A stretch of DNA of 26,598 bases, taken from the IMG/VR virus record IMGVR_UViG_3300009285_008383, positions 1 through 26,598 of that record; one strand, written 5' to 3'. Below are positions 2,086-26,598 of this stretch, piece after piece. The DNA is from a virus. Both the position numbers and the translations under genes were made by a program. The notes below the pieces were generated by a model. The model did no database searches and had not been told where the DNA came from. It saw nothing but the letters and a program-made list of their open reading frames with translations. Within the stretch, counting starts at the first letter, position 1, and every line of letters starts with the position of its first letter.

Positions 2086-4017
2086 ATGATTGGACCGTTA
2101 AAAAAGCAGGCATATGTGCCACCAAAACCAGCGACGATTTCTTGGGATGGGTTTCGTGGCGGATTAAATCTTTTTTTACGACAAACGGAATTGAAGGGAA
2201 ACGAGTTGGCCCAAGCTGACAACTTGATGTTGACGGGATTGGGCGTTCCGACGAAGCGATGGGGAACACAAGATTATTTTTTAGCACAAGCAACGGGATA
2301 CGGAAGAGGATTGGTTGAGGCGAAATCAATAACAGATGTACGGGAAATCCTTGCCTTAACAGATTGGGGAATTTTAACAAAACAAAGCGGTACATCCTAT
2401 ACGGAAATTACAGGGGTATCGTGGCCTTCTGGATATAACCTGGAAGGCACGCAACTTAACAATGTAGTGTATTTGGTCAATGCGCAGAAACCGTTCGTGA
2501 AATACGATTTCACTTCGTTGGTTCCATTTGAAGCATTAAGTACTCCAACGAACATGGCGGCAACGAACATTTCTGGAGCAACAGGACTAACGACGTGGAG
2601 TTGGAGAGTATCTGCGGTATCAAAAACCGGAGAAACCCTTGCTTCGACGGCAATTTCTCTTGCCAGTTTGCCTCAGCTCTTGAGCGACACGTTGATACGA
2701 GTTACTTGGAACACGGTGTCTGGACCATCGGGAATTTTACAGGGGTACAACGTGTACCGTGGGGCGCAGGGAGATGAGACGTGGTTGGCTCGCGTTGATG
2801 ATACGTCAACACGTTACGATGATATCGGTATCAACGCATCACAACTAACGCTTCCACCGACCGCCGATACAACCGACGGGCCGAAGGCAAAGTATATCGT
2901 TCGTTTTGAAGATCGTTTGGTTCTGGCAGGCATCGACGGTGCACCAACAAAAGTGTTTATATCGGGAAGAGTACCCTTTCACGAGCGGTTTGATGCGAGT
3001 GGTGGCGGTGGATATATTTATGTGGATCCCGACACGGGAGACAACATTACCGGATTGGGCATTTGGAAGGGAAGAATTGTCGTTTTTAAAGAGAAAACGG
3101 TATGGGAAGTGACGCTCAATACCGTAACCGTTGGAAATTTCGCTTTATTGACACCGACCTATAAATTGGTAACAGCATCTCAGGGGTGCTCAAGTCACAG
3201 GACGATTGTACCCGTGAACAATGATTTGTTCTTTGCAAATCGAAGAGGAATCTATGTTCTCGGGCAACAACCGGGAGCAGGTGTTGAACAATTGTGGACG
3301 AATGAGTTGTCAGCGAAAGTACGGCCTATTTTTGATTCACTGACGCAAACAGATTTGGATAATGCGTGTGCAGCATACTTTGATTATAAGTATATTATCG
3401 CATTTCCGACATCAAAGAAAGCAATTGTTTTTGACCGGGAACGGGGAGCATTCATGGGACCGTGGATTACGTCGTTTGGTATTGGCAAACTGGAAACGAT
3501 AACAGACGGCACCGGAATAGAACGATTGCTTGCCGTTGACTCAACCGATAACTATATATCGGAGTTTTCAAAAAGCTTGACAGACGACAAGGGAACGGTC
3601 TTTTCAACGCTTTTAAAAACAAGAAAAGAAGATTTCGGAGACTGGACGCTCTTTAAGACCATTAACGAACTCTATACGAGTTTCAGGAATGTTTTCGGAA
3701 CCGTGGCAGTCAACATCTATCTTGAAGAAAGAAGCGGGGTCACGTTTACGGCAAAGTCATTTAACATTACCAGCACACAAGGAACAAGCGGATGGGGAGT
3801 AGATCAATTGGGAGTGGCGCAATGGGGACTGACAAACGTAGACGCCGCAGCATCATCTGACGAGATTTTGCGGAAGGCATTGCTTTATAAAACAGCGAGA
3901 ACAATGCAGGTAGAAGTTACTACGAGTGCAAAAGCAGATAATTATGAATTGTTGGCAATTAAGGCGTTTGGGGTCGCGCAGGGGAGAGGGTCGAGTCCCT
4001 CAGAATGGATTGTGTGA
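2086..4017 (+). CDS. Large tail hub/nozzle-like protein (P22 gp10 / T7 gp12 type)
   Basis: This 643-residue protein opens with a DGFRGGLN...QTELKGNELAQADNLML segment, typical of phage tubular or DNA-stabilising tail proteins. Beta-rich repeats follow, built around GLVEAKS, LTDWGIL and NNVVYLVNAQKPFVKYDF. Residues roughly 155-245 look like a fibronectin III-type insert (SWRVSAVSKTGE...GYNVYRG). The second half continues with YIVRFEDRLVLAGI, GLGIWKGRIVVFKEKTVWEV and DLFFANRRGIYVLG, reading like propeller or nozzle strands. By analogy with P22 gp10 and T7 gp12 it would form the tail tube tip that holds packaged DNA. Start ATG 2086 was chosen over the out-of-frame ATG at 2082. The size and order after the adaptor-like gene fit this role, but sequence similarity was not tested. 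Confidence 0.6.
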   Translation: MIGPLKKQAYVPPKPATISWDGFRGGLNLFLRQTELKGNELAQADNLMLTGLGVPTKRWGTQDYFLAQATGYGRGLVEAKSITDVREILALTDWGILTKQSGTSYTEITGVSWPSGYNLEGTQLNNVVYLVNAQKPFVKYDFTSLVPFEALSTPTNMAATNISGATGLTTWSWRVSAVSKTGETLASTAISLASLPQLLSDTLIRVTWNTVSGPSGILQGYNVYRGAQGDETWLARVDDTSTRYDDIGINASQLTLPPTADTTDGPKAKYIVRFEDRLVLAGIDGAPTKVFISGRVPFHERFDASGGGGYIYVDPDTGDNITGLGIWKGRIVVFKEKTVWEVTLNTVTVGNFALLTPTYKLVTASQGCSSHRTIVPVNNDLFFANRRGIYVLGQQPGAGVEQLWTNELSAKVRPIFDSLTQTDLDNACAAYFDYKYIIAFPTSKKAIVFDRERGAFMGPWITSFGIGKLETITDGTGIERLLAVDSTDNYISEFSKSLTDDKGTVFSTLLKTRKEDFGDWTLFKTINELYTSFRNVFGTVAVNIYLEERSGVTFTAKSFNITSTQGTSGWGVDQLGVAQWGLTNVDAAASSDEILRKALLYKTARTMQVEVTTSAKADNYELLAIKAFGVAQGRGSSPSEWIV

Positions 4018-4041
4018 TTAATACGCTCTAAATATCAATAT

Positions 4042-4734
4042 ATGATAACAAAATGTGTTCATTGTAACCAAACAATTAAGGTAAAACAAAAAAGGAATAG
4101 AGATGATTCTTTAAGAAAGAACTTCTTTTGCTCTATCTCTTGTTATAAAACTTACCGACTGGACAAGAAATGGACAGTAAAAGAATGTGCATATTGTCAC
4201 AATGAATTTAAATACCGAAGCAAACAAAAAGATCGGAAGTGTTGCTCATTGAGCTGTAATAGCAAGTATGGTCAAGTTTTAACAGGGAGCAATAAACAAA
4301 TAAAAACAAATTGCTTGGTGTGTAAAAAAGAAATTTTGTCATCTCCAAGCAATATTAAAAATGGTAAAGGAAAATATTGTTCTAAAAAATGTTTTTATTT
4401 GGTGTGTTCAGACGGCTGGATAGGCGACAAAAATCCCAAATGGAATGGCGGTATCACACCACTCTATCGTCGAATCCGAACGAGCACGAAATTTTACAAA
4501 TGGCGTAAAGCAGTATTAGAACGTGACAATTATACTTGCCAAAAATGCGGATACAATCCGAAATACGACGAAGGGAACACAAACATGGAGGCTCATCATT
4601 TATTTATGCTAAAAGATTTACTCATTCATAATCTGAAAAAACACATTTTTAGTCTCGACAACGGGACAACGTTGTGCCAACCGTGTCATCAGGTAATTAC
4701 TGATTATCAAAAGTTGAAGGAGGGATTGATATGA
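4042..4734 (+). CDS. HNH endonuclease with repeated zinc-finger modules
   Basis: This 230-residue, Cys- and Lys-rich protein has three Cys-paired modules in its N-terminal 130 residues: CVHC...CSISC, CAYC...CCSLSC and CLVC...CSKKC. They look like repeated zinc fingers for DNA recognition. A GDKNPKWNGG motif leads into a C-terminal HNH nuclease with ERDNYTCQKCG, MEAHHL and DNGTTLCQPCHQ. It is a likely mobile homing-type endonuclease inserted between the nozzle-like gene and the paralogue pair. Its architecture differs from the HNH gene at 797, so the two were probably acquired independently. Its last four bases overlap the next start as ATGA, so the structural gene downstream is translationally coupled to it. 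No intron core is visible around it. Confidence 0.85.
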   Translation: MITKCVHCNQTIKVKQKRNRDDSLRKNFFCSISCYKTYRLDKKWTVKECAYCHNEFKYRSKQKDRKCCSLSCNSKYGQVLTGSNKQIKTNCLVCKKEILSSPSNIKNGKGKYCSKKCFYLVCSDGWIGDKNPKWNGGITPLYRRIRTSTKFYKWRKAVLERDNYTCQKCGYNPKYDEGNTNMEAHHLFMLKDLLIHNLKKHIFSLDNGTTLCQPCHQVITDYQKLKEGLI

Positions 4735-8162: not shown

Positions 8163-9425
8163 ATGGCAGTACAAGGAACATGGAATGTTTTAGGATACAA
8201 TATTCCTGATCTCGGTTTTACCGAAGGATTGGGGATTGGTTCTGGAACAAATTGGCAGAATCCGCAGATTCCTTTTTCAAGCACAGCACAAGACATAAAT
8301 CAAGCCAAGTACGCACAACAGCAATACTATCAGCAAGGAGGTCCGACGCTTCAGGCAAGTAGAATTCCTACATATTCTACACCTGCACCTTCTGGTGGGG
8401 GTGGTGGACAAGTTTTAGGTGGTCAAGCGCCTCAGCAAAGTGCAGATTCTCCCATTCGAGAACTTGAAAAGATTGGTTGGGAGAATATGAACCCAGATCA
8501 GAGAAGCCGATATCTTGCAATGATCGGACAGCAACAGCAGCAATCTGAGGCAGAGCGAAGACAAGCTGAAGAGGCACAACTCAACGAAATTTACTCACCG
8601 CTATTTGGTACTCTTGAGAGTCAAAAACAACAATATGAATCTCAACTTCCCGGCTATCAACAGCAAGTGACGGGCGAATTTGAGCGGGGATTAGAAGACG
8701 TTACTGGTCAAGAAGCAGAATCACAACGACAACTGGCAAAACAGGGAACAAGCGTACAAGAATCAGAGGCCAATGCGTTGCAAAAAGCACGACAAGTGTA
8801 TAACGAATTGTCTCAGCGGTACGGGGCATTGTTCGGATCACGAACATCAGCCGGACCATTTGCAATGGAGATACTGGGTCGTGAGACACAAAAACAGTTC
8901 GGTGATGTCGGTAAACTAGCAACACAGGGAATGCAGGCAGTTTCCGATGAAAAGAACCGTCTTACAACATGGGTCAATACGCAAAAGAATGAGTGGGGAA
9001 GAAAGAAAAACGAAGCGATGAATAATTTGACGATTTCGTTTAATAACGCAATTCAACAAATTAACGCGCAACGTGGTCAACTGGAGTCTGACAAGGCATC
9101 TCGCCGCTATGATATTCTGGCACAGGCTCGTGAACGCGCATCACAGATTGAAGCAGCAGATGTTGCATTTAATCGACAGCTTCAGCTATTCCAAGCTGAA
9201 CGAGGCAGCCAGATGCAGAGCGCTACACAAAACTTGGGAGTAGGTAACGTAGCAGGTGCTTATACAGAACAACTTGGTCAGGCATACAATCCGTCTGTTG
9301 CAAACGCGGCAACGCCTATTACTCAAACGCCCTACAACTATTTGGGCAACTATACAGAGGAGTATGACCCGATAACTGGTCAGCGTAGGCGGGTTCCTCA
9401 ATATTCTCTTGGGCAGGCACGATAA
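8163..9425 (+). CDS. Gln-rich coiled-coil protein, probable internal/ejection protein
   Basis: This 420-residue protein is rich in Gln, Ala and Glu. Residues about 1-100 are low-complexity (Gln, Gly, Pro, Ser). Residues about 115-365 are strongly helical, with long coiled-coil stretches such as QQQQQSEAERRQAEEAQ, RRYDILAQARERASQIEAA and FNRQLQLFQAERG. The tail is Pro/Tyr-rich. There is no signal peptide and no membrane segment. Position before the giant virion-type protein, together with composition, fits the DNA-ejection or internal core proteins of short-tailed phages. That role is inferred; no enzyme motif is visible. Start ATG 8163 follows GGGAGGTG. Confidence 0.6.
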   Translation: MAVQGTWNVLGYNIPDLGFTEGLGIGSGTNWQNPQIPFSSTAQDINQAKYAQQQYYQQGGPTLQASRIPTYSTPAPSGGGGGQVLGGQAPQQSADSPIRELEKIGWENMNPDQRSRYLAMIGQQQQQSEAERRQAEEAQLNEIYSPLFGTLESQKQQYESQLPGYQQQVTGEFERGLEDVTGQEAESQRQLAKQGTSVQESEANALQKARQVYNELSQRYGALFGSRTSAGPFAMEILGRETQKQFGDVGKLATQGMQAVSDEKNRLTTWVNTQKNEWGRKKNEAMNNLTISFNNAIQQINAQRGQLESDKASRRYDILAQARERASQIEAADVAFNRQLQLFQAERGSQMQSATQNLGVGNVAGAYTEQLGQAYNPSVANAATPITQTPYNYLGNYTEEYDPITGQRRRVPQYSLGQAR

Positions 9426-9469: not shown

Positions 9470-12400
9470 ATGGCAAAAAATGCCTTGCAATCGGTACTAG
9501 ACGTTGTAAAACGTGGTGCTACTCGGCTTGCGTCTGTAACTCCTGTTGGTCAGCTCGCGTCACGGGTCGCTCAGGCAACGCAGACGTTACGAGTGCCATC
9601 ATTGGAAGAACTCGAAAACACATATAGACAGAGTGTGGGACGAGTTTCTTCCGCTGTGCAAAAATATCCAACGCCGGTTTCCTATGTCGCTCCCAGAATT
9701 CGTCAGTATATCCCAGAAGTACGGATTCCAACAACGCCATCTCCACAGGAATACGCACGGGTGAGATTTCCACAAACGACATTTTCAAAAAACATGCAAT
9801 TGTTGCCTCGGGCTTTAACAACCGAGACACCAGTTGCGCGTTTTTTGTTTGAAAAGATTGGGGGACCCGGGCTTGAAGACGTAAAAGGGCCTCCGACTAT
9901 CGGAAAATACATAGCAGGAGTCACTGAAGCATCTTTGCCTGGTCTTTTGCCGATAAGTGGTGGACCTCAACTTGCGAGAAATATTTTACGGGAGGGAGTT
10001 AATATTCCCGCCGCATTAAAAAGCGGAGCCGCATTAACCGCATTTAACGTTGCTTTACAGAAACTGAAAGGAGAGAAGGTTTCTGCTCCAGAACTGGCAA
10101 CATCTTTTGGTTTTGGCGCACTATTTGGTATAGCAGCACCAACGCCACTGACAGGCATTTCAACGGCTGAACTTGGGATGGCGCGTAGAACACTTACAAA
10201 ATATGGTTTTGAACTGAAGGACTATGAAACCCCAGCACTGTTGAAAGCGAAGTTCCGACGCGCCGTACTAAATCTTCATCCTGACAAAGGAGGAAATCCA
10301 GAGGAATTCTCGGCATTTATTGACGCCTACAACAAAACGACATCCGCAGGAATTAGCGGAGGATGGGGACTTCCAGACATTCTCACCTGGATTCGCAATA
10401 TCTGGACGAAAAAAGCAGAAGCAAAACCTAAGGGCATTCGCTTGCTTCCTTCTGTTGAACCACCACAGGTTGTACGAGAGCTTCGTTATCCAAAAGAATT
10501 GCCTCCTACAATTGAGACTAGGCTCAGGGCCAGTACGGGTGGCTTCAGACAAGACACATTGAGAAGACTAGAACAGGGAAAAATGACGACTGGCGACTTA
10601 GAGCGTGTAGGAATTAAGCAAAACATAAGGCGTATTGATCTTGTAACGCTTCTTAAAAATTCTCCTGAACTAGCACAAAACCCTGTGCTTACCGTAGGCG
10701 AAGACGGCATGTTGCGGTTCGCTGGACAAAAACAACAGTTTTCTATTGTGCCTGAAGCATTGGGAATTACAACACCTCTTACTCCCGGTGAAGTAATTAG
10801 TTTGAAAAATATTATCGGGGATAAGGGAACATTTCCGGTTCTTGTAAGTAGTGAAACCCAAGTCGGAAGAACTCCCGAACAACAAGCACAAAAAATTGCA
10901 GACATTATTCGTCAGGAGTCCGGCATCGGTTCTCACGTCTTTGAGGGAGAACAAATCCGAACGGTTCTTCAAAAGGCAGGACTTGAAACGATTTCAGAGG
11001 GTATCATTGATACCCCGGGGTTTATTGTTCAATACCTAAAACGGGATCTGGCTACGGGAGAATCAATTACCCCTCGGCTAACAGTTAATGTATTTCCAAC
11101 AGAGGCAGCACAAGCACCCGCAGTTCAACCTCTTGCACCCGTAGTTCCTATAACGCCCAAGGTGCCAACTACTCCTCCTGTGGTTGCAGTTCCTAAACCG
11201 TTAGCAATGGAAGAAACTCCAGCACAAACAACGTCATTTGGTGGAGGAACCGTTGAGGTTGTTCCAACGAAAGTCGTGCAACACAAAGGAGAATATCTTG
11301 CTCAAATAGACAAAGTGCTTGGCATGGGAAAAGTTTCCGATGTGTATTACTGGGACAAAGTAGAAAAAAGATGGGCGTATTTAGAGGCAAATGTTAAACC
11401 GTATAAAAATCAACTGGACAGATTGGTTGAAAGAATTAAACCAGAGAAACCTGCTCCTGTAGAAAAAGTAAAGCAACAGGAAGTTCTTCGGGAAAATCGT
11501 CCTCCAGAGGAAGTCCGAACAGCGGCACTTGAGGTTCCAAAGCAAATGGTTCCAGAGTTGGGGTATGAGGTAGAACTTCCGCATATTGTTGCCGTAAAAG
11601 TGCTGAACTCTTTTGGTGACATAACGGTAAACTCAGGGTTTCAAACAAACTTTAAACCTCCGGTGTGGTCGATTACGATTCAAGGAAAAGCATCTGATGA
11701 TGCAGTTCGGGCAGCACGAAGTCTTGGTCTTCACGTTAGGGAACGGAAAGTCGATGGAACAAAACAATTGTTTACGGATATTTATCTTCCCAAAATTGGT
11801 GCAGACGAGGTAGGTATTCAAAAAGCTACGCAAGTCTTTGACGAATTTGCACTTCGCTACAACACCCTGAAACAAACACCGCAGCCTATTCCAGAAAAAC
11901 CTGCTCCAGTCATTCAGATTCCCAAACCCGGTGAGAAAGAAAAAGGATTTCTAAAAACCGCGCTTGAGTCAGAAACAACTGCACCGGAAGTAAAAAAAGT
12001 AGCCGAAGAATCTATTTACAAATTCTATACACCAAAGAAAAACAAAGCAGTATTTGAAAAGATGAGACCAGAGGTGGAAAAGGATTTCGAGGGGTGGGTA
12101 CAGCGAATTAAAGATCCCAACCAGGCATGGACTGATGAAGTAAATGCAGCAGGTCAGGTTGCCATGCTTAAGCTTCAACAGCAAGGTCGTCATGAGGAAG
12201 CAGCAGAACTTATTGACGCACTTGATGAAAAAGGAAGAATTGCAGGTCGGTCAATTCAGATATTTTCAAACTGGGACTTTTTGACGCCAGAGGGCATGAT
12301 TCGTTATGGCCAACGAATGATTCGAAAGAGTCAAGAAAAAGTGAGTTTCCTAGCTGAAATTGTAGGAAAAGGAAATGCCGTTCGGGAAATTCCCGAGTCA

Positions 12401-15400
12401 TCAAGAAAAACAGCAGACGAGTTAAACAAGGTTAACCAAGAGGTTGCCGAGCAGGTTGCACAGGAAGTTTCAGCACAGTTCGGTAAGACTGCACGACGGC
12501 TTGTTAACAGAGAAGAACTTGAACCCGAAGAGAAGCTTGGAAAACGGGTTATTAATTACGTTAAGTCGCTTGACAAGAAACAAAAAGAAGAAGATCCCGT
12601 GCAAGTTATGGTTAATACGCTCTACGCTGTTGCGCGGGAAGTATTGCCGGAAAAGACGGTTGCCACCCGTGATCCGCTTGAATTCGTTGCCAAGGCCATT
12701 AAAGAACGCAAGACATACCAGTTCGTTTGGGATGAAGCAAAGCGGATTGTTGAAGAGAAATTTGCAAAAGACCCTAAAGCTATTGAAAAGCTCGACGACT
12801 ATTTTGCGTACTATCTCAATCGTCCGTTCACCAAGTCTCAACTGGAGCGAACCGTCGGTGGGCAGATAAAAGTCGAAGAACTTGATTTGGGACAAGTCGT
12901 TCGTGAGTTTTACGTTGATCTTCAACGAAAGGTTGGCCAGAATCTTTCTGCGCATTTGGCAGAACGCGCTGGTTTGGTTGATGAAGACGCACGGATGCTC
13001 GAGACATTTGTGACGAAACGATTTGACGAGCTAACCCGGGCAAAGAAAGAACAGATTCTTACTGCGTTTTCTAAGCAATACCCAAAGACGATAAAGAAAA
13101 CCCTGTGGGAAGAGTTGATTCAACTGAGCAATCTTGGTGCGTTTTCAGATAAGAAGTATTACGACATTATTGCAAAAAGAACGGGTATTCCTAATCTGAA
13201 CGAAAATGTTGCTCAGGCACTCTACAAAAAGACGCAACATCTTCAGTCTCTTCCCGAAGGTAGTAAAGAGCGATTCGAGGCAACGCGAGAGGCGATTCAA
13301 CTTATGGCTGACCAAATTCCATTAGGTCTCTGGGATATATTTGATGCGTATCGATATCAGGGATTGCTTTCAAGTCCCCGTACCCAACAGCGTAACATCA
13401 TTCAAAACCTTTTTGCCGCAACGATGCTTCGTCCGGCAGTGCTTTCGCAGGAAGTGGTAATTGATTGGGTACAATTAATGATTTCCGGTAAGGAGCGGGA
13501 AGTGTACATGAAGCAAGTCCCCGCGTATTACAAGGGGCTTATCAACGCTCTTCCGACAGGCGTAGAGGCGTTAAAAAACGTATTTCGTGGTGTTTCAGAA
13601 ATAGAACAGCCTGATCTTCGAATGCTCAAGTTCCTGAAACTTCGCAAAGAACATCGGAATCTGACGATTGCAACCAACCTCATGGAGGGAATGGACAAGT
13701 TCTTTTCAGCAATCATTTCCAGTGGGGAATATGCGTCGCTTCGTGAACAGGGGGTTCCTGAAGAAGAGGCGCGCGCGCTTGCCCACAAGATAGCAGAGGA
13801 GTATCTGCTTCGTGCACCAACGGATCCTAATAACTTAACGGGTCAGGGGGCGTTGTGGTCAAGGCTTGATAAAGTAACCAATGGTATAGCCAACTTCCGA
13901 CGTGACATTCCCGGCATGACGCTTTTTGTTCCGTTTATTCGAACGGTTGCTAATTACGCAAAGCAAAATCTCCAGTTCGTTCCCGCAATAGGATCACTGG
14001 GAGCACTTTCCGCAACAGGAGAACAACAACGCCAGCAGCAGGCAAAAGCAGCGGTAGGACTGTATGCGGTTCTTTTTGGTTATCTTATGGCAATATCCGG
14101 CAACACGACATGGGATGTTCCGGCAGATAAAGATGAGCGACAAAAGTTTTGGGATTCCGGTAAACGCCCCTACGCTATCCGCATCGGCAACTGGTGGGTC
14201 CCTATGATTTATTTGGGTCCATTGACGTTGGCACTTGCTATTCCCGCTGCATTTAAACACTACGAAGCTGATGCACGAACGGCGTTGACAGACACTTGGG
14301 ATAAGCCGGTTTATCGTTCGATCCTGGGGCTTGCAAAAATGTTTTCTAACCTATCCATGATTTCCAACATCGGCGGATTTTTGCGCATCATTGAAGGAGA
14401 TGATGATTTTCGAATGGATGACCTTGCTGCATCTATTCTTTCCCAAGGGTTTCCCCTCATTGGTCTTTCCCGATATATATCAACCCTTGCCGACCCTGTC
14501 TATAGGAAAAGCGAAGGAGTAAAAGAAGGACTGATGAAGAGTATCCCTTTCTTGTCCAAAGGGCTTGAACCGTACCGGACGCTTACAGGCGAAGAATCAA
14601 AACGAAACCTCTCGTCCTACATTCTTCCCTACGATATCAACAGAGAGGATCCGGCAATGGATTACCTTCTCCGTCAACGACGGCTTCAACTTCAACGCAA
14701 TGCCATTATTAACCAACTCAAGAAAGACGTGGAGGTGCCGGAGAATATTAAAGCAGGATCGGAAGAAGAATATACCTATGCTTCCGAACATCCAGAAGTA
14801 GCGTATGAGTCAATGCTCAATTCACTCCAGCGCAGACTGTCAGAAACATACAAACAAGAGACTGAGATACATCTTGAAAAAGAGATAACAGACGAAGAAC
14901 GGCTGGCGCTTACTGAAGAAATTAACGTTCAAAAAGAAGAACTTTTACAGATGCTGGATCAGTTGTACAAAGAAATAAAGGCAGCCAAGGGAGAACAAGT
15001 AACCAAGAATATTTTCACTGACGAAGTAGAAGCTGCTGATTTTGAACAACAAATGCAACCGGTGTTGCAGGAGATAGGACAACAACAGGACGCATTTATC
15101 AAATCATCACAAACACTCACTCAACAACTGAAAGAACTGCGCAGTCAGTCGGAAAAGTACAAACAAATCCGTGGTTTTTTTGATCTTGCGGCTACCTCCG
15201 GCGGATCATTTGATCGGGCGCGTCAGTTTGCAGAAAAGCAAGGGATTCCCGGCGAACTTGCCGAGTATGATTTTTGGTCGGCTCAAAAGCTTAACGAGAG
15301 AAGTTTTTATATCCACTCGCTTATTGATAGCATGGATGGACAAAGCGTCTTTGATACGCTCGTTTCGCTCCGCCGTATGAGTCCCGGAACGGGTAACATG

Positions 15401-15799
15401 GTCCTATCAGATGAAATTGTTGGTGATCTTGTCGATGAAGGATATATCAGTAAATCGCTCGGCAAACAACTTCGAAAGATAAAAATAAAACTCAATGAGG
15501 CAGGGGAACCTATGGCGAGACTTCAGGCAGTAGGTACGGGTGGAGGTATGACCAAAGCAGATCAGAACAAGCTTTTGTCCATTCTAAAGCAACGGGACAA
15601 CGCATACCTCAGGGCGATGAAAATAAAACCACCAAAGATTACGGTTTCAAAGTTGAAGATGCCCAAATTCCAGGCGCCAAAACCAATCAAGATCCAAAAA
15701 CCGAAGGAGTCGAAATTTTATCTCCGGCTGGCAAAAGCAAAAAAGGTAAAGTTTCCGCAACTTAAAAATGTTGTCTATGCAACCCGAGGATCCTATTAA
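9470..15799 (+). CDS. Giant internal virion / polyvalent-type protein with a J-domain-like segment
   Basis: A single uninterrupted frame encodes 2109 residues. Residues about 236-292 resemble a DnaJ J-domain: LLKAKFRRAVLNLHPDKGG with HPD at 270-272, then EEFSAFIDAYNK. Residues about 545-580 form a Pro/Val linker. Long helical parts follow. The 1300-1700 region (GLLSSPRTQQRNIIQNLFAA, then AYAIRIGNWW-like PYAIRIGNWWVPMIYLGP with two hydrophobic segments near 1527-1545 and 1573-1592) resembles the region shared by large phage internal or polyvalent proteins. The last 60 residues are very basic. Such proteins are packaged in the head and ejected with DNA; the hydrophobic part could help cross the membrane. 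The J-domain could recruit the host DnaK. Function is inferred from size, order and these patterns. Confidence 0.65.
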   Translation: MAKNALQSVLDVVKRGATRLASVTPVGQLASRVAQATQTLRVPSLEELENTYRQSVGRVSSAVQKYPTPVSYVAPRIRQYIPEVRIPTTPSPQEYARVRFPQTTFSKNMQLLPRALTTETPVARFLFEKIGGPGLEDVKGPPTIGKYIAGVTEASLPGLLPISGGPQLARNILREGVNIPAALKSGAALTAFNVALQKLKGEKVSAPELATSFGFGALFGIAAPTPLTGISTAELGMARRTLTKYGFELKDYETPALLKAKFRRAVLNLHPDKGGNPEEFSAFIDAYNKTTSAGISGGWGLPDILTWIRNIWTKKAEAKPKGIRLLPSVEPPQVVRELRYPKELPPTIETRLRASTGGFRQDTLRRLEQGKMTTGDLERVGIKQNIRRIDLVTLLKNSPELAQNPVLTVGEDGMLRFAGQKQQFSIVPEALGITTPLTPGEVISLKNIIGDKGTFPVLVSSETQVGRTPEQQAQKIADIIRQESGIGSHVFEGEQIRTVLQKAGLETISEGIIDTPGFIVQYLKRDLATGESITPRLTVNVFPTEAAQAPAVQPLAPVVPITPKVPTTPPVVAVPKPLAMEETPAQTTSFGGGTVEVVPTKVVQHKGEYLAQIDKVLGMGKVSDVYYWDKVEKRWAYLEANVKPYKNQLDRLVERIKPEKPAPVEKVKQQEVLRENRPPEEVRTAALEVPKQMVPELGYEVELPHIVAVKVLNSFGDITVNSGFQTNFKPPVWSITIQGKASDDAVRAARSLGLHVRERKVDGTKQLFTDIYLPKIGADEVGIQKATQVFDEFALRYNTLKQTPQPIPEKPAPVIQIPKPGEKEKGFLKTALESETTAPEVKKVAEESIYKFYTPKKNKAVFEKMRPEVEKDFEGWVQRIKDPNQAWTDEVNAAGQVAMLKLQQQGRHEEAAELIDALDEKGRIAGRSIQIFSNWDFLTPEGMIRYGQRMIRKSQEKVSFLAEIVGKGNAVREIPESSRKTADELNKVNQEVAEQVAQEVSAQFGKTARRLVNREELEPEEKLGKRVINYVKSLDKKQKEEDPVQVMVNTLYAVAREVLPEKTVATRDPLEFVAKAIKERKTYQFVWDEAKRIVEEKFAKDPKAIEKLDDYFAYYLNRPFTKSQLERTVGGQIKVEELDLGQVVREFYVDLQRKVGQNLSAHLAERAGLVDEDARMLETFVTKRFDELTRAKKEQILTAFSKQYPKTIKKTLWEELIQLSNLGAFSDKKYYDIIAKRTGIPNLNENVAQALYKKTQHLQSLPEGSKERFEATREAIQLMADQIPLGLWDIFDAYRYQGLLSSPRTQQRNIIQNLFAATMLRPAVLSQEVVIDWVQLMISGKEREVYMKQVPAYYKGLINALPTGVEALKNVFRGVSEIEQPDLRMLKFLKLRKEHRNLTIATNLMEGMDKFFSAIISSGEYASLREQGVPEEEARALAHKIAEEYLLRAPTDPNNLTGQGALWSRLDKVTNGIANFRRDIPGMTLFVPFIRTVANYAKQNLQFVPAIGSLGALSATGEQQRQQQAKAAVGLYAVLFGYLMAISGNTTWDVPADKDERQKFWDSGKRPYAIRIGNWWVPMIYLGPLTLALAIPAAFKHYEADARTALTDTWDKPVYRSILGLAKMFSNLSMISNIGGFLRIIEGDDDFRMDDLAASILSQGFPLIGLSRYISTLADPVYRKSEGVKEGLMKSIPFLSKGLEPYRTLTGEESKRNLSSYILPYDINREDPAMDYLLRQRRLQLQRNAIINQLKKDVEVPENIKAGSEEEYTYASEHPEVAYESMLNSLQRRLSETYKQETEIHLEKEITDEERLALTEEINVQKEELLQMLDQLYKEIKAAKGEQVTKNIFTDEVEAADFEQQMQPVLQEIGQQQDAFIKSSQTLTQQLKELRSQSEKYKQIRGFFDLAATSGGSFDRARQFAEKQGIPGELAEYDFWSAQKLNERSFYIHSLIDSMDGQSVFDTLVSLRRMSPGTGNMVLSDEIVGDLVDEGYISKSLGKQLRKIKIKLNEAGEPMARLQAVGTGGGMTKADQNKLLSILKQRDNAYLRAMKIKPPKITVSKLKMPKFQAPKPIKIQKPKESKFYLRLAKAKKVKFPQLKNVVYATRGSY

Positions 15800-20279: not shown

Positions 20280-20494
20280 CCATTGAATATGAAACACTAC
20301 GAACGGGTGTTTACGCGGGAAAGGTTTTATGTAAAACGTGTGATCGTCACCAAGCATTTATACACAAGGGATATGGTAATGATGCAGAACCATTAGATAG
20401 AGAAGATAGAGAAATACTTGATGAGGCAGCAAGCAGACACGATAAGGCAAACCTTGGACAACACACCATAATGATTTATTTATTTACACCATGA
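20276..20494 (+). CDS. Mini zinc-binding protein B
   Basis: This 72-residue protein carries VLCKTCDRHQAF and, later, DEAASRHDKANLGQHTIMIYLF. The CxxC and the His-x-His-type end mirror those of the gene before it, including an aliphatic strand right after the last His. A zinc-binding adaptor or nucleic-acid-binding role is possible. It is coupled by ATGA at both ends, so it should be made in step with its neighbours. No known family was recognised. Confidence 0.55.
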   Translation: MTIEYETLRTGVYAGKVLCKTCDRHQAFIHKGYGNDAEPLDREDREILDEAASRHDKANLGQHTIMIYLFTP

Positions 20495-21069
20495 GAGACA
20501 TTTGGATTGAGCCGCCATATCAAACTATTTATCGTATTGCTGACCCCTTGGAAATGATGGTTCCCGTAGAGTTTGGACGATTTAATCGTCATCAAGTAGA
20601 TTGGATACGAAGACGAGATACTGATGTTTTAACAGGTTTAGTACGGTGTCAATTTATTGGAAGAGTAGCAAGCGGAAAAACCGTACAGTGTCCGATGGAC
20701 GAAGAAACGGCAGGAGGAATATCACAACTTCATGCACACCACATTATACCTCAAGGAGCGTGGGAAGGATGGCTACGATTTGGTGAGGAAACAGAAACAC
20801 CTCATCAACCTTGGAATGGCATTATGCTTTGCGCCCTTTATCACCATAATGGGCCTCGGGGTATCCATCCCGATTATGCAAGGGCGAGAGAAATTTATAA
20901 GTTTAATCAAAATTCTTTCAATGAAGTTGCCCATGAACACCACAAGTTGATTGAAGAAGGTATCCCATATTGGAATACTGAATATGATAATTTACTTTAT
21001 GACATAGCACGGGATAGAACGGAGGATTACTTATTTGTTCACCCGAATGATCCATTTCCTTATAAATAA
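20491..21069 (+). CDS. HNH-like nuclease-fold protein
   Basis: This 192-residue protein has an HNH-type core in its second half: LHAHHIIPQGAWEGW (the HH pair), QPWNGIMLCALYHH (the Asn and second His region) and GPRGIHPDYARAR. One Cys pair precedes it (RCQFIG...VQCPMDEE). Unlike the two homing-type HNH genes it is not AT-biased, is acidic, lacks NUMOD-like repeats and is ATGA-coupled at its start. This suggests a resident phage function such as a packaging-associated or DNA-processing nuclease rather than a mobile element. The catalytic call is moderate. GGAGG at 21021, inside the gene, provides the RBS for the next start. Confidence 0.65.
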   Translation: MRDIWIEPPYQTIYRIADPLEMMVPVEFGRFNRHQVDWIRRRDTDVLTGLVRCQFIGRVASGKTVQCPMDEETAGGISQLHAHHIIPQGAWEGWLRFGEETETPHQPWNGIMLCALYHHNGPRGIHPDYARAREIYKFNQNSFNEVAHEHHKLIEEGIPYWNTEYDNLLYDIARDRTEDYLFVHPNDPFPYK

Positions 21070-22555: not shown

Positions 22556-22833
22556 AGGGGTTTTATACGAAGGGTATCACTAAATCCTCTGGGTTTGTAT
22601 TCAGGGTGTATTGTTACCCCCTCTTTTCCACCGTACCACTTCCACACAAAGGCTTTTACTTTGTCTGCTTCCAATCTAGTGTACATGCGCCACTGACCAC
22701 CTGTCCGTCGGGCTACAGGAACCTTGCCGGTTTTTTCAAATCGGTGAAGCTGAGAGAAGCTGAATCGGGAAAGCCCTTCGTGTTGTAATTCTTCAACAAT
22801 TCGTCCTCTGGTAATAAATGGAAATTCTCTCAT
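22552..22833 (-). CDS. MerR-like / excisionase-like HTH protein
   Basis: This 93-residue protein has a winged-helix pattern: RGRIVEELQHEGLSRFSFSQLHRFEK is the helix-turn-helix, followed by GKVPVARRTGGQWRMYTRLEADKVKAFVWKW. The RR-GGQWRMY wing and the terminal helix match MerR or excisionase-type DNA-binding domains, which bend or recognise promoter or att DNA. With no sensor domain it is more likely an excisionase or simple regulator. It is ATGA-coupled to the genes on both sides. Confidence 0.65.
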   Translation of the reverse strand: MREFPFITRGRIVEELQHEGLSRFSFSQLHRFEKTGKVPVARRTGGQWRMYTRLEADKVKAFVWKWYGGKEGVTIHPEYKPRGFSDTLRIKPL

Positions 22834-23015
22834 GGTTTTGCTTTGATTGCCTTTAGTGCATGTTTACACATTTTCTTTGGCCGGAAGATACCGTCAGGAC
22901 AATTACATCTAAGGGCACCGTAGCGGTCTATGTATACCCGATAACTCTTCCCTTTAGTCGTTTCTGATGGGATAAACGTGAAGTTCCGTTGTCCCTCAAA
23001 CACAACCGGTAGCAT
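22830..23015 (-). CDS. SWIM-type zinc-finger protein
   Basis: This 61-residue protein starts at the ATG nine bases after the -10 box of the promoter at 23025-23053. Other in-frame starts further upstream (GTG 23036, ATG 23024) would lie in or at the promoter. Residues about 15-35 are beta-like (KGKSYRVYIDRYGALRCNC), and the end RCNCPDGIFRPKKMCKHALKAI gives the CxC...CxH zinc ligands of a SWIM domain. SWIM domains bind DNA or protein partners and occur in recombination-linked proteins. As first gene of the ssb operon it probably serves DNA metabolism. It would be translated from a leaderless mRNA. Confidence 0.65.
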   Translation of the reverse strand: MLPVVFEGQRNFTFIPSETTKGKSYRVYIDRYGALRCNCPDGIFRPKKMCKHALKAIKAKP

Positions 23016-23024
23016 ATGTATCAT

Positions 23025-23053
23025 ACTATAGCACACTTACCCACCCTTGTCAA
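23025..23053 (-). promoter_or_regulatory. Sigma70-type promoter for the SWIM-HTH-ssb operon, leaderless
   Basis: On the minus strand TTGACA (23053-23048), a 17-base spacer and TATAGT (23030-23025) form a near-consensus promoter, with GTGTGC just before the -10. The SWIM ATG follows nine bases after the -10, so the mRNA is leaderless or nearly so. The -35 box lies inside the last codons (FDK) of the truncated ThiF-like frame. Architecture and the GTGTGCTAT block are shared with the promoter at 8083-8111. Confidence 0.78.
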
Positions 23054-23198
23054 ACTCTACCACTGCCACGTTACTACATCCCATTTTCCGTAGGGCAAGT
23101 AATGTCCAAGAACCTATTCCGCCACAGCCAATAAGAAGGATGGGAAAATCCAGTTCCTCTGGTTTAACTAAGTTGGTTTGGCGTTTGTAGATATTCAT
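23037..23198 (-). pseudogene. Truncated ThiF/E1-like gene (N-terminal relic)
   Basis: The 53-residue frame contains ELDFPILLIGCGGIGSWTLLALRKMG and ends VAVVEFDKGG-stop. This is the start of an E1-type Rossmann fold: the GxGGxGS nucleotide loop and the VEFD strand that should be followed by the N-x-x-R-Q region and catalytic Cys. All of that is missing, and the end runs into the operon promoter at 23025-23053. A full-length E1-like protein is encoded further upstream in the same operon, so this is a paralogue or leftover. Start ATG 23198 is used; a longer frame to 23312 overlaps the SPFH gene and adds unlikely sequence. Confidence 0.6.
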
Positions 23199-23242
23199 TG
23201 GGAAGAGCTGGCTGGGTAGTTCCAGCCCTTCGCAATACACAC

Positions 23243-24016
23243 CTATGGACTGATATTCAGAAACGGTACTGGCGCTCCTCCTCCCATATAAACAGGAAGA
23301 ACTCCATTCCATTTTTCCAACGCGAGTCTTTGCAATAACTCTACTGTCAATGTTTGTTTTAATAGCTCTTGTTCTTTTGCCTTTGCTTCTGCCCGTTTTA
23401 CTGTCGCGTCTGCTTCGAACTGAGCTTGTTGTCGCTGTTGTTCGGCGATAACTTTATGCTCAATTGCTTTCTCAAATTCTTCAGAGAATCCGATGTCTTT
23501 AAGTGCAACCTCTTGTAAAACAGCACCATACTTAGCCAAACGAAGAGAAAGATCGTCAAAAATCTGCTGCTTGATCTCTACCCGTTTATCCAACATCTCT
23601 TCAATGTTGTGTTTGGCGGTTGCTGCTTTTACTGATTCCTGAACCTGCGGGTCAATAATTTTAGTTTTAACATCCTCTTCCCGTCCGATGGTTCGAAGAA
23701 TTTCTGCTACCGCATCAGGATTGATACGATAAGTAACGGCAACTTTTACTTTTACGTCTTGCTGGTCGTTGCTCGCTGCGTCTGCATCTGCTTCATCGGT
23801 ATGGGTTCTGGTATCAAATACTACAATGTCTTTCGTAATTGAATTGTAAAAATACCAGCCTTCCGGGAACACTGTTCCTGTTACCCGTCCTTTAACAACC
23901 TCAACACCGCGATGCCCCGGGCCGATAAATGCAAATGGGCCGAAGAGTAGCAACACGAAAATAAATACCAACAATAATCCAGCACCAATGGCAACTATCT
24001 TAATTGTGTTTTCCAT
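23243..24016 (-). CDS. SPFH/prohibitin-like membrane protein
   Basis: This 257-residue protein has an N-terminal membrane segment (residues 6-28, IVAIGAGLLLVFIFVLLLFGPF). An SPFH/Band 7 domain follows: RGVEVVKGRVTGTVFPEGWYF, NDQQDVKVKVAVTYRINPDAV and a helix with KAATAKHNIEEMLDKRVEI. Residues about 170-225 form an Ala/Glu-rich coiled coil (AEQQRQQAQFEADATVKRAEA), then EKWNGVLPVYMGGG. SPFH proteins assemble into large membrane rings and control membrane proteases and lipid domains. A phage copy could guard a membrane protein from proteolysis or reshape the host membrane. The start ATG follows AGGAGGTG. It overlaps the tiny membrane gene upstream by 17 bases. Confidence 0.85.
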   Translation of the reverse strand: MENTIKIVAIGAGLLLVFIFVLLLFGPFAFIGPGHRGVEVVKGRVTGTVFPEGWYFYNSITKDIVVFDTRTHTDEADADAASNDQQDVKVKVAVTYRINPDAVAEILRTIGREEDVKTKIIDPQVQESVKAATAKHNIEEMLDKRVEIKQQIFDDLSLRLAKYGAVLQEVALKDIGFSEEFEKAIEHKVIAEQQRQQAQFEADATVKRAEAKAKEQELLKQTLTVELLQRLALEKWNGVLPVYMGGGAPVPFLNISP

Positions 24017-24137
24017 GCTTTTTCACCTCCTTCTGTCCTTGCTTTCTTCCAAATTCGATAAGTATGTGAGTCACCGCATAGAGAAAACCACCCAAAAGCG
24101 CACCGACCAGAATCCCGACTACCCAAATCTTAGCCAT
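24000..24137 (-). CDS. 45-residue single-span membrane protein paired with SPFH
   Basis: The ATG at 24137 sits behind a strong AGGGAGGCGAT site. Residues 3-26 are hydrophobic (KIWVVGILVGALLGGFLYAV), with Gly spacing that suits helix packing, and the tail is very basic (RKQGQKEVKKHGKH). The end overlaps the SPFH start, whose own Shine-Dalgarno lies inside this frame, so the two are coupled. Small membrane partners of SPFH rings are known in principle, but this protein is not recognisable as any of them. Confidence 0.65.
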   Translation of the reverse strand: MAKIWVVGILVGALLGGFLYAVTHILIEFGRKQGQKEVKKHGKHN

Positions 24138-24179
24138 ATCGCCTCCCTTCTGTTTTTCGTTTTGTCCATTGTATCGCTT

Positions 24180-24389
24180 TTAATTCTTCAGTTTTTTTAA
24201 TTCTGCTTGTAGGTTTTTCAAATCGTCTTTATGTTCTTCGGCATATTTTATTTGAGCTTCTAACACACATCGCTTACACCACCATTGACTCATACCATGA
24301 ATCCACCCCATGACTCCGGTGTCACCAACCCACCGTACTGTTCCTTTTCGTTTATGACAGTGTTCACAAATGATGTCTTTTTGCTTCAT
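24180..24389 (-). CDS. Small zinc-ribbon protein downstream of E1
   Basis: This 69-residue protein has ICEHCHKRKG and, 22 residues on, WWCKRCVLEAQIKYAEE, giving a CxxC/CxxC zinc ribbon, followed by a charged helix (EEHKDDLKNLQAELKKL). It starts at an ATGA overlap with the E1-like gene, so both are made together. It could hand partners to the E1 or bind nucleic acid. It is too Cys-rich and short to be a ubiquitin-like protein. Confidence 0.65.
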   Translation of the reverse strand: MKQKDIICEHCHKRKGTVRWVGDTGVMGWIHGMSQWWCKRCVLEAQIKYAEEHKDDLKNLQAELKKLKN

Positions 24390-25024
24390 ACGATCTCCCT
24401 TGGAAAAAATCTGTTCCCCGTAAGTTCTCTTTTCTTTCCCGTCTTGAGAAAATCCTGAGCAACCAGAGATCCGAACGCTGCTACCATGCGAACAAATGAT
24501 GCAGCCCCCTCTAATTCACAAATATCCAGTCCGTCGGCATCTTCCGGTGGTTGGTATTCTTCGTTCCAGAGAATCGACCATGTAAAACTTGGTGAGAATC
24601 CCACATGGAAACAGGGAATCTCAAAAGGAAGACATGATTCTTGAATGATTCGCCGTGCTTTTTGGTTGTCGAAACAATCAACAACTAAATGTGGAGATGG
24701 AGCTACTCCTGTTTCAATAGTTCCATCCCCTCCGCCTATAAATGGGCCGCCTAATATTGGCCCGAGATCCCACGGTGTTTCTATTTTTTTATTGACAACA
24801 CTTATCTTTCTATTCATTTTATGAACGACATATTCCAATGCGTCTACCTTTAGCATCCCGATATGATCGGAAATATATGCTTGAGTATTTGCCCTCACAT
24901 TGCGCTCTGCCACCTTGTCGAAATCCAAGACGGTAATTGCGTGTTCATCACGAAGATCAGAAGCCAATGAAACAGTTAGTAAAGATCCTAAACTCCCCGC
25001 ACCACAAATAAGAATGGTTTTCAT
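24386..25024 (-). CDS. ThiF/E1-like adenylating enzyme
   Basis: This 212-residue protein starts with MKTILICGAGSLGS (nucleotide loop, residues 8-13). VLDFDKVAERNVRANTQ follows (36-48, the D-x-D-x-V...N-x-x-R-Q pattern), then VVDCFDNQKAR in place of the E1 DN motif. A Cys lies in GLDICELEGAASF, a fit for the thioester Cys. E1 and ThiF enzymes adenylate the C-terminus of a small ubiquitin-like or sulfur-carrier protein. There is no CxxC zinc pair, as in some bacterial conjugation systems. The chosen ATG is four bases after the JAMM stop; an in-frame ATG at 25063 is possible. No ubiquitin-like partner or E2 was found in the window. Confidence 0.8.
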   Translation of the reverse strand: MKTILICGAGSLGSLLTVSLASDLRDEHAITVLDFDKVAERNVRANTQAYISDHIGMLKVDALEYVVHKMNRKISVVNKKIETPWDLGPILGGPFIGGGDGTIETGVAPSPHLVVDCFDNQKARRIIQESCLPFEIPCFHVGFSPSFTWSILWNEEYQPPEDADGLDICELEGAASFVRMVAAFGSLVAQDFLKTGKKRELTGNRFFPREIV

Positions 25025-25028
25025 TTTC

Positions 25029-25496
25029 TTAATTGACTTTTTTGAATTCTTTTTCGTCTCCATAGCTTCGCTGCAACAGTATCCACCCGTACCACTCGGG
25101 CTCATCTTCAGGGTCTTTGTGGATAACGTCGGATTCCTCAATAATTTCCCACTGTCTTTTCCCTTTACGGATCAGCCATTCTTCTTTGGACTCCAGCTTG
25201 AGGAAATACGTGACTTCGTGAAAATGCCCTTCACATTCGGATATAGTTGCAATTCTACAACTAAATGGATACATAGCGAGTCCTTGGGCAAGAAGCGTTG
25301 TCCGGTCTTCTTCGCTTAGTTCTTTCATTCCCGGCGGGTGAACGTGGGAAAGTGTATAGACAATACCGGGAGAGGTTTTGTGAAGTTTCCAGAGAAGTTC
25401 GGGAGGAAACACAGTGAGTCCGGCAGAACCGTCAACTAAATGAAGGATGTTTTTTTGTGGAGAGATGATTGCGCCTGTTTCCCTATAGAAGGTCAT
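25029..25496 (-). CDS. JAMM (JAB/MPN) metalloprotease
   Basis: This 155-residue protein contains a perfect JAMM motif: HVHPPGMKELSEED gives H51-x-H53, seven residues, S61-x-x-D64. Glu6 in RETGAIIS matches the catalytic Glu of the first strand. Such zinc enzymes remove ubiquitin-like tags or process precursors of sulfur carriers. The second half is highly charged with aromatic residues and has no recognised domain. The gene is ATGA-coupled to the endonuclease upstream and directly precedes the E1-like gene. The pair E1 plus JAMM is known from several bacterial ubiquitin-like systems and some phages. Confidence 0.82.
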   Translation of the reverse strand: MTFYRETGAIISPQKNILHLVDGSAGLTVFPPELLWKLHKTSPGIVYTLSHVHPPGMKELSEEDRTTLLAQGLAMYPFSCRIATISECEGHFHEVTYFLKLESKEEWLIRKGKRQWEIIEESDVIHKDPEDEPEWYGWILLQRSYGDEKEFKKVN

Positions 25497-26335
25497 GTTA
25501 TTTGGTCTAAAATTTCTTGCTCGTTAAGTTTATCCTGAATAAAAATAAAGCTTTTCCACCCATATTGAGCGAAATGATCCCGGCGTTTCTCAATGTAATC
25601 CCCCTGATGGTGATAAACATTTCCTACTTCAATCAGTATCTTTTTCCCATTGATGTTTACGAAGTCTGGATTCTTTCCTCCGATCCAAAAGTCTCCATTT
25701 CCTGTGTATTTATAGGGTAAATGGTGTTTTTGGATTATCCTTATCATTTGTTCTTCAAGAGATGTAGGACGAATCAATAATCCTTTTAACATCACTTGGT
25801 GTTGTTTTTCACACCATTCTTTATTTTCCCACAACTTTTTTATAGCAGGCTTAGGAGCACTCGAAGCGCAATGGAGTGAACAAAACTTTCCTCCTCCTCT
25901 TTTTATTTGATAAGGAAAAACTAAAAAACTTTCCCCACATATTTTACAGAAGGTGGTTATTTTCCCTCCCTTCCAATTGCTTGCTTTTTCTCCTCTATAA
26001 TTCTCACTAAATCTTTTTTTACTTTCGTTAGACCATTTTTTTCCTATACCATTTAAGCTCATTTTTCTTTTACTTTCTTCTGTATGTTTTTTTCCCAAAT
26101 TGGCCAATCTTATCTTTCTTTTATGTTCTTCTGATAGTTTTCTTCCTATCAACCATGGCTTCGTTTTGCCCAGTGTTGAACTTGAAATTTTCTTTTTAGT
26201 TGCGTTCGAACGCATAGCTACTCCTTTTTGCCCTTTATTCCAAGGTATTTGCCCTTTTTTAAATTGAGTACTGAGAGAATAGGCAATTCCCTTAATAAAT
26301 CTTCCGTAGGTATCTCGTGTATGTTTATTTTGCAT
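25493..26335 (-). CDS. Homing endonuclease: NUMOD3-like repeats, zinc finger and Vsr-like nuclease
   Basis: This 280-residue protein begins with NUMOD3-like repeats (IPWNKGQKG, KLSEEHKRKIRLANLGKKH and variants, residues about 30-105), DNA-contacting modules of homing enzymes. A GEKASNWKGG motif leads into a zinc finger (FCKICGESF...FCSLHCASS). The C-terminal domain has SLEEQMIRIIQKHHLPY, KNPDFVNINGKKILIEVGN and DYIEKRRDHFAQYGW. This matches a Vsr-like PD-(D/E)xK or EDxHD nuclease rather than HNH. The gene is very AT-rich like the HNH gene at 797, a sign of transfer. It lies between an unrecognised gene and the JAMM gene and is coupled to the latter by ATGA. Confidence 0.82.
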   Translation of the reverse strand: MQNKHTRDTYGRFIKGIAYSLSTQFKKGQIPWNKGQKGVAMRSNATKKKISSSTLGKTKPWLIGRKLSEEHKRKIRLANLGKKHTEESKRKMSLNGIGKKWSNESKKRFSENYRGEKASNWKGGKITTFCKICGESFLVFPYQIKRGGGKFCSLHCASSAPKPAIKKLWENKEWCEKQHQVMLKGLLIRPTSLEEQMIRIIQKHHLPYKYTGNGDFWIGGKNPDFVNINGKKILIEVGNVYHHQGDYIEKRRDHFAQYGWKSFIFIQDKLNEQEILDQIT

Positions 26336-26344
26336 TGTTTCGTA

Positions 26345-26598
26345 TCAAGTTCTCGTTATGTAAAGTGGAGTATCTTTTTGAAACTCCGATGCCAATGCTA
26401 CTATTCCAGAAATGTTATATCGCTTGTCAAACCCCGACAAACAGTAACCAGCATTTTCAACTCTTAACCGTTCATTTAAAATTGTTTTAACAATCTGTCT
26501 TCCGCTTTTCCATATCACTAAATATTTATTGCTCGCTTGTCGCGTTGCAGAGATAAACCTTCCTCCCGCCTCTGTAACTGCACGTTCTATTCTCTCAG
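26345..26598 (-). CDS. C-terminal part of an unrecognised gene (partial)
   Basis: The frame is open from the window edge and ends at a TGA at 26347-26345, giving 83 residues: an Arg/Glu-rich start (ERIERAVTEAGGRFISATRQ), then YLVIWKSGRQIVKTILNERL and a GYCLSGFDKRYNISGIV strand region. It looks like genuine protein, with mixed charge and beta-alpha alternation, but no family is evident. The following endonuclease gene starts nine bases after its stop, so both belong to the same leftward operon. Confidence 0.6.
   Translation of the reverse strand, partial: ERIERAVTEAGGRFISATRQASNKYLVIWKSGRQIVKTILNERLRVENAGYCLSGFDKRYNISGIVALASEFQKDTPLYITRT

Follow-up and report, generated by a model that had tools for sequence, protein, structure and literature searches.

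Operons that join a prokaryotic ubiquitin-like protein (Ubl) to an E1-like enzyme and a JAB protease, together with phage Ubl-JAB pairs, were described in 2006 by Iyer, Burroughs and Aravind (PMC1779556). Modifiers that end in a single Gly also exist, such as Atg8/LC3 and the cGAS of CBASS (PMC10097602). Bacterial Ubl tagging is known as an anti-phage weapon; here we describe phages that carry an apparently whole pathway of their own, related to a cyanobacterial one. The locus studied lies at positions 23037-25496, minus strand, of the IMG/VR record IMGVR_UViG_3300009285_008383, which we analyzed in full (26,598 nt, or 26.6 kb; referred to as the window herein). The window is probably a fragment since it has no end repeats; it derives from a tailed phage whose genes include an adaptor of the SU10 type and one for an internal virion protein. 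Judged by its genes, the window holds the downstream (3′) part of a predicted Ubl tagging cluster that is common to other phages and many cyanobacteria.

Catalytic genes and conserved gene order

Three genes in the window belong to this cluster, referred to as system A:

26345-26596, minus strand, open at the contig end (26598): 3′ end of the gene for a protein that we call F, encoding its C-terminal ~83 residues, with the Cys motif AGYCLSG
25029-25496, minus strand: JAMM (MPN+) metalloprotease, 155 residues, with E6, H51-x-H53, S61 and D64
24386-25024, minus strand: E1-like adenylating enzyme, 212 residues (Pfam ThiF, E 1.8e-14), with a GAGSLG loop, D34/D36, K59, D116 and C169

The residues that form the ATP site in the E1/ThiF/MoeB superfamily, namely a Rossmann nucleotide loop, Asp and Lys, are present in the window E1 as GAGSLG, D34/D36, K59 and D116. 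Conserved throughout an alignment of 103 E1 proteins were the nucleotide loop, a D-x-x-D-N motif, two Asp, a Lys and a Cys; this Cys, which is equivalent to C169 and sits downstream of the D-x-x-D-N motif, was invariant (103/103). The JAMM/MPN+ signature (Glu and HxH(P) followed by SxxD) is likewise complete in the window JAMM, where E6, H51, H53, S61 and D64 align with those of its relatives. The protein fell below detection in a Pfam search. Against a profile of the relatives' JAMM proteins it scored 17.5 bits (E 3.4e-4; all open reading frames (ORFs) of 107 sequences), and its orthologues in three related phages are 44-48% identical to it.

Scans with the window E1 or JAMM as single proteins returned no relatives. 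Relatives were reached via an alignment (A1) seeded from tblastn matches in two phages and two cyanobacterial plasmids, and the profile search with A1 yielded 22 viral loci and 197 loci in bacterial genomes. The best 80 of these 197 were kept; they are mostly from cyanobacteria, with Obscuribacterales, Chloroflexota, Planctomycetes and others. Around the E1 family, phages and bacteria share the gene order Ubl – VWA protein – F (~285 residues) – JAMM – E1. Among the 20 viral loci with E1, which include the same contigs fetched twice or near-copies so that about 15 are distinct, F was found in 19, JAMM in 18 and Ubl in 17, always upstream on the same strand. The 82 cellular or plasmid loci gave F in 67, Ubl in 40 and JAMM in four within the available flank. 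A scan seeded with F instead found eight loci, with E1 adjoining F in all eight and JAMM present in seven. The Ubl core is single and spans 66-90 residues, ending in RPEAVYG or RPKTPFG, and the E1 proteins of the cassettes have about 190-265 residues and one ThiF domain. A VWA protein of ~500 residues, which in the cyanobacterial member matches Pfam VWA_CoxE, was found in 56 loci; its place is between Ubl and F, in phages as well. Examples are found at L066 5749-7182, L006 6970-8514 and L146 (reverse complement) 3089-4705, and their N-terminal half is without a Pfam match. The family membership, gene order and catalytic residues seen here support the view in the preliminary description of this DNA that E1 and JAMM are of a type that attaches and removes a Ubl tag.

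The open ORF at the contig end matched the F profile with 32.2 bits, compared to 5.4 for the best of 1000 shuffles. By tblastn, the fragment matched F of two related phage contigs, L144 (55%, E 8e-30) and L146 (35%, E 3e-18), and every F protein examined, including the fragment in the window, retains the Cys. Because this ORF matches the C terminus of F, the cassette extends past the contig end. We looked for Ubl in the window both by profile and by a small-ORF tail search and found none. Given the matching order in related phages, which carry Ubl and VWA genes upstream, both should lie past 26598. This agrees with the earlier suggestion that a partner may lie beyond that position, although the F fragment itself and a homing endonuclease gene next to it (25493-26335) had been overlooked.

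Using the 643-residue structural protein of the window as a query, we obtained 13 related phage contigs, some of them short fragments; a 2109-residue virion protein gave no relatives in an IMG/VR scan. E1 occurs in four of the 13, F and JAMM in three, and an SPFH gene in one, which is a record without E1. The closest relative is L144, with 79% identity in the 643-residue protein. Its order is VWA, F, JAMM, E1a, E1b, Ubl2, a 461-residue protein, JAMM2, SWIM and SSB, and several homing endonuclease genes occupy gaps between these. L146 begins with what is probably a Ubl, followed by VWA, F, JAMM, an ORF resembling an ADP-ribosyltransferase, E1 and SSB, with other genes in between. VWA was recognized in the related phages at E about 1e-21. 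In L146 (reverse complement, 8212-8577), the ORF between JAMM and E1 overlaps both and resembles, by eye, an ADP-ribosyltransferase/RNA 2′-phosphotransferase. A second, different phage Ubl cassette occurs in L016, L020, L023, L025, L027 and at L144 4956-7833, where it stands in tandem with the first; we refer to it as system B in L144.

Predicted working and rival explanations

The structure predicted for the Ubl of L006 (predicted local distance difference test score (pLDDT) 91.8) has the β-grasp order β-β-α-β-β and ends in Gly; its best PDB match by Foldseek was the UBL domain of FAF1 (probability 0.91, with an E of only 0.03). The model of F (pLDDT 85.9) has an N-terminal part that is OB-like according to weak Foldseek matches, none at E<1e-3, and a C-terminal domain in which a helix is followed by four strands, an invariant Gly-x-Cys-Leu turn and a second helix (α-ββββ-Cys-α). 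In this model, the order of elements in the C-terminal domain is reminiscent of an E2 core. Comparison of F with UBE2D2 by hhalign gave a probability of 0.2%, no known E2 was matched in Pfam, in PDB sequences or by Foldseek with the whole model, and neither F nor VWA matched any E2 or PRTRC model. Since the UBE2D2 profile comparison came back empty, F as a transfer enzyme is a proposal. The earlier statement that no E2 is visible thus holds by sequence, with F as a candidate.

We consider it somewhat more probable than not that the cassette Ubl – VWA – F – JAMM – E1 is a phage-borne operon for reversible Ubl modification that tags host or phage proteins. JAMM would trim the precursor of Ubl so that the C-terminal Gly is exposed. 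E1 would adenylate this Gly with ATP and then take over Ubl as a thioester on C169. Transfer of Ubl to a target would follow, in which F, with its OB-like N-terminal part and the C-terminal domain bearing the invariant Cys, probably assists. The VWA protein may serve as a metal-dependent adaptor. Later removal of the tag by JAMM would make the modification reversible, and host or phage proteins would be marked in this way during infection. That conjugation takes place, that F acts in transfer and VWA as an adaptor, and what the substrates and the benefit to the phage are, is inferred. A hint of the trimming role comes from the Ubl tails: where Ubl is extended beyond the core Gly, JAMM was present in 8/8 loci (six distinct), compared to 11/49 loci with an unextended Ubl.

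Several points weigh against this reading. The Ubl itself is not within the window, sequence comparison reveals no E2, and the JAMM of the window has diverged. The likely Ubl of L146 is weak against the Ubl profile (hhalign E 0.0025) and rests mainly on its position, although its hhalign probability of 11.8 compares to 6.3 for the best of 100 shuffles and it is located at the expected place. The correlation between Ubl tail and JAMM ignores phylogeny, and most loci without JAMM are cyanobacterial. Lastly, single-Gly tails and a single-domain E1 fit sulfur transfer as well. In this main rival explanation, a ThiS/MoaD-like Ubl acts as a sulfur carrier that E1 activates, JAMM only matures Ubl, and a metabolite or tRNA ends up thiolated. 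ThiF/MoeB models are the best matches of the window E1, E1-Ubl-JAB sets tied to sulfur metabolism are known (PMC1779556), and many tRNA genes adjoin the cassette in phage Rctr197k. However, we recognized no rhodanese, cysteine desulfurase or sulfur-pathway gene in the neighborhoods read, where most ORFs were judged by eye and not scanned, and the conserved partners VWA and F are neither known from sulfur transfer. We hold a sulfur carrier to be unlikely, though worth taking seriously.

The presence of Ubl, VWA and F also bears on a role in counter-defense, in which JAMM would strip host Ubl tags (Bil-like or CBASS-like) off phage proteins and E1 would capture or sequester host Ubl. Ubl conjugation does serve anti-phage defense (PMC10097602), and JAMM-like proteases of Borg elements have been proposed as anti-tagging factors (PMC12660748). 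Yet in the relatives E1 and JAMM come with a Ubl, VWA and F of the phage's own, which is apparently a whole pathway and goes beyond a stripping enzyme, and Ubl, VWA, F and E1 are also grouped in cyanobacterial genomes. Counter-defense strikes us as improbable.

A more far-reaching form of the tagging hypothesis is that the cassette represents an undescribed, self-contained Ubl conjugation pathway common to phages and cyanobacteria, in which the C-terminal Cys domain of F does the work of an E2 without detectable E2 kinship, VWA is the target adaptor and some phages carry two pathways in tandem. We put this forward tentatively, as a possibility that we doubt more than we believe.

The SPFH block and the remnant of system B

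Beside system A, the region contains the following features:

25493-26335, minus strand: free-standing homing endonuclease with NUMOD3 repeats (Pfam NUMOD3, E 1.6e-9), inserted between F and JAMM and outside the predicted tagging system
24180-24389, minus strand: zinc ribbon, 69 residues, two CxxC pairs, passenger or accessory
24000-24137, minus strand: single-span membrane peptide, 45 residues, called from its ORF and spacing, overlapping the SPFH start
23243-24016, minus strand: SPFH/Band 7 protein (Band_7, E 8.8e-34; phrog_200, E 8.5e-51)
23037-23198, minus strand: stub left of the second-type E1 of system B, limited to its initial ~50 codons (Pfam ThiF, E 1.2e-6), no ribosome-binding site
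23033-23053, minus strand: deletion scar, with blastn blocks on both sides and a TTGACA microhomology
22830-23015, minus strand: SWIM-like zinc protein just beyond the scar, 58% identical to L144 7869-8045, a flanking conserved phage gene outside the system

Read inward from the contig end, the minus strand carries in order the open ORF, the NUMOD3 homing endonuclease, JAMM, E1, the zinc ribbon, the membrane peptide, SPFH and the E1 stub, followed by SWIM, MerR-like, zinc-finger and SSB genes. The gap between JAMM and E1 is 4 nt, E1 and the zinc ribbon overlap in ATGA, and the membrane peptide and SPFH overlap by 17 nt. Good ribosome-binding sites precede the zinc ribbon, the membrane peptide and SPFH, and none precedes the stub. 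The genes listed in the preliminary description, from JAMM to the truncated E1, are thus all present on the minus strand and in tight order.

That description further linked E1 and JAMM to an SPFH membrane platform. The SPFH protein has the expected features, with Band_7 spanning residues 31-204 and a hydrophobic stretch ahead of the domain, and on this one contig it is adjacent to the E1 and JAMM genes, with overlapping genes. The association was rejected when we tested it from both sides, from the E1 loci and from the SPFH loci. SPFH was found in 0/20 phage cassette loci and in 1/82 cellular or plasmid loci, 9.4 kb away. Whole records of cassette-bearing phages held an SPFH gene in 3/16 cases, all more than 10 kb from the cassette. 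SPFH is also absent from the four related phages with E1 (G015-G018 / L144-L147), which leaves the window as its only bearer among the related cassette-bearing phages, and the related phage with SPFH lacks E1. Conversely, among 50,697 phage records, 316 contain an SPFH gene, and the three best neighborhoods had no annotated E1 or JAMM. The relatives thus show, for SPFH, the very lack of association that the preliminary description had named as a refutation, and a cooperating SPFH platform has next to no credibility left. We conclude from these comparisons that SPFH is, by all appearances, a lineage-specific passenger outside the tagging unit, and it can be set aside as a false lead for the pathway.

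The whole zinc ribbon–membrane peptide–SPFH block is missing from L144, the nearest relative. As it stands where E1a of L144 directly precedes E1b, the block was either inserted in the window lineage or lost in that of L144. The membrane peptide gave no family match. The zinc ribbon may be an accessory of the system because a homologue (L002 4968-5570, E 5.8e-6) adjoins the E1 cassette of phage Rctr197k.

The truncated E1 shares 78% identity with the beginning of E1b in L144, where that gene is intact; its start is probably 23198, giving 53 codons. Outside this relative, its best match was the type-2 phage E1 of L027 (E 1.6e-6), and it matched the type-2 E1 profile in the first 50 positions only. 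Continuation of the stub in another frame was rejected, as the remainder of the profile was matched in no frame. By blastn, the window aligned with the first 149 bp of E1b in L144 (75%) and resumed just before SWIM (70%). Between the two blocks lie 13 bp in the window versus 2.74 kb in L144, comprising the rest of E1b, Ubl2, the 461-residue protein and JAMM2. The sequence TTGACA occurs at both ends of this 2.74-kb piece, once within E1b codons and once as a −35-like box before SWIM; the window has a single TTGACA, with a 17-bp spacer to TATAGT at 23030-23025. The scar is thus observed directly. Because L144 has an intact E1b as well as Ubl2 and JAMM2 at that place, the stub reads as what remained after deletion of system B. 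The truncated E1 noted earlier is present, then, but not as a component of the cassette: compared with L144, it is evidently a deletion remnant of a second tagging cluster and no working part. The scar also leaves a promoter-like TTGACA-17-TATAGT pair (23053-23025) before SWIM, and its −35 box falls within the stub.

The loss of system B raises the question of whether the window cassette is itself decaying and non-functional. System B is down to a stub, homing endonucleases invade the operon, and the window E1 has a long branch (2.17) in the E1 tree. It groups next to the clade of Rctr197k-type phages (support 98/95), although where exactly it belongs is unsure. The JAMM, E1 and F fragment of system A nonetheless retain open frames and key residues, and we find decay quite improbable.

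Elsewhere in the window, 9470-15799 encodes the 2109-residue internal virion protein, which has PHROG matches only and, around residue 270, a segment (HPDKGG) that resembles a J domain. Genes of the homing endonuclease kind are abundant in this group of phages: the window holds four (25493-26335, 740-1408, 4042-4734 and 20491-21069), and the Ubl operon of L144 alone has three different ones in its gaps (1132-1503, 2349-2825 and 3392-4387).

Comparison with described systems

In our literature search, no paper turned up that describes the set VWA-F-JAMM-E1 for phages; most subscription papers were outside its coverage, so this is a weak sign of novelty. One phage lineage carries, or carried, two Ubl pathways. 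The cassette raises the question of whether phages tag host proteins for cell takeover, and F is a new candidate transfer enzyme with an invariant Cys.

The Ubl-E1-JAB(-E2) operons of types 6d and 6e (PMC1779556) are similar in that Ubl, a rhodanese-less E1 and JAB/JAMM share one operon, with cyanobacterial members. Here, in contrast, VWA (CoxE-like) and F (no Pfam match) are constant partners, polyUbl and a recognizable E2 are absent, and the set is phage-borne. The polyUbl operons of type 6e have tandem Ubl repeats and a JAB fused to E1, whereas here Ubl is single and JAMM and E1 are separate genes. PRTRC-like operons of type 6d place an E2-like protein B and an α-helical protein beside Ubl, JAB and E1; the PRTRC ThiF model matched the window E1 weakly (E 2.3e-4, 20.6 bits, cut-off 144.75).

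BilABCD resembles the cassette in combining Ubl, E1, JAMM and a Cys-bearing transfer candidate, with JAMM processing Ubl. However, BilA contains a pair of Ubl domains, and the E1 of that system, BilD, is large and has two domains (PMC11354881), compared to the one-domain Ubl core of 66-90 residues and one-domain E1 of about 210 residues here. CBASS Cap2/Cap3 shares E1 chemistry, a JAB isopeptidase and tolerance of a single C-terminal Gly, but Cap2 combines an E1 with an E2 domain and cGAS itself serves as the modifier (PMC10097602), whereas the E1 here is single-domain; we noticed no E2-E1 fusion or cGAS-like gene in the window or in the neighborhoods read.

Among phage systems, the lambda-type tail proteins TAPI/TAPK (Ubl and JAB-NlpC) are also phage-borne Ubl and JAMM proteins. 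They act in tail assembly with no E1 in the cluster as described (PMC1779556), while the present cluster centers on an E1 and has SSB and small accessory genes as neighbors. The type-2 phage cassette (L016, L020, L023, L025, L027 and system B of L144) likewise pairs a phage E1 with JAMM and, in several cases, Ubl. It differs in having another type of E1, a JAMM with an HSH motif, a Ubl that adjoins E1 where present, and a partner of ~400 residues that replaces F and VWA.

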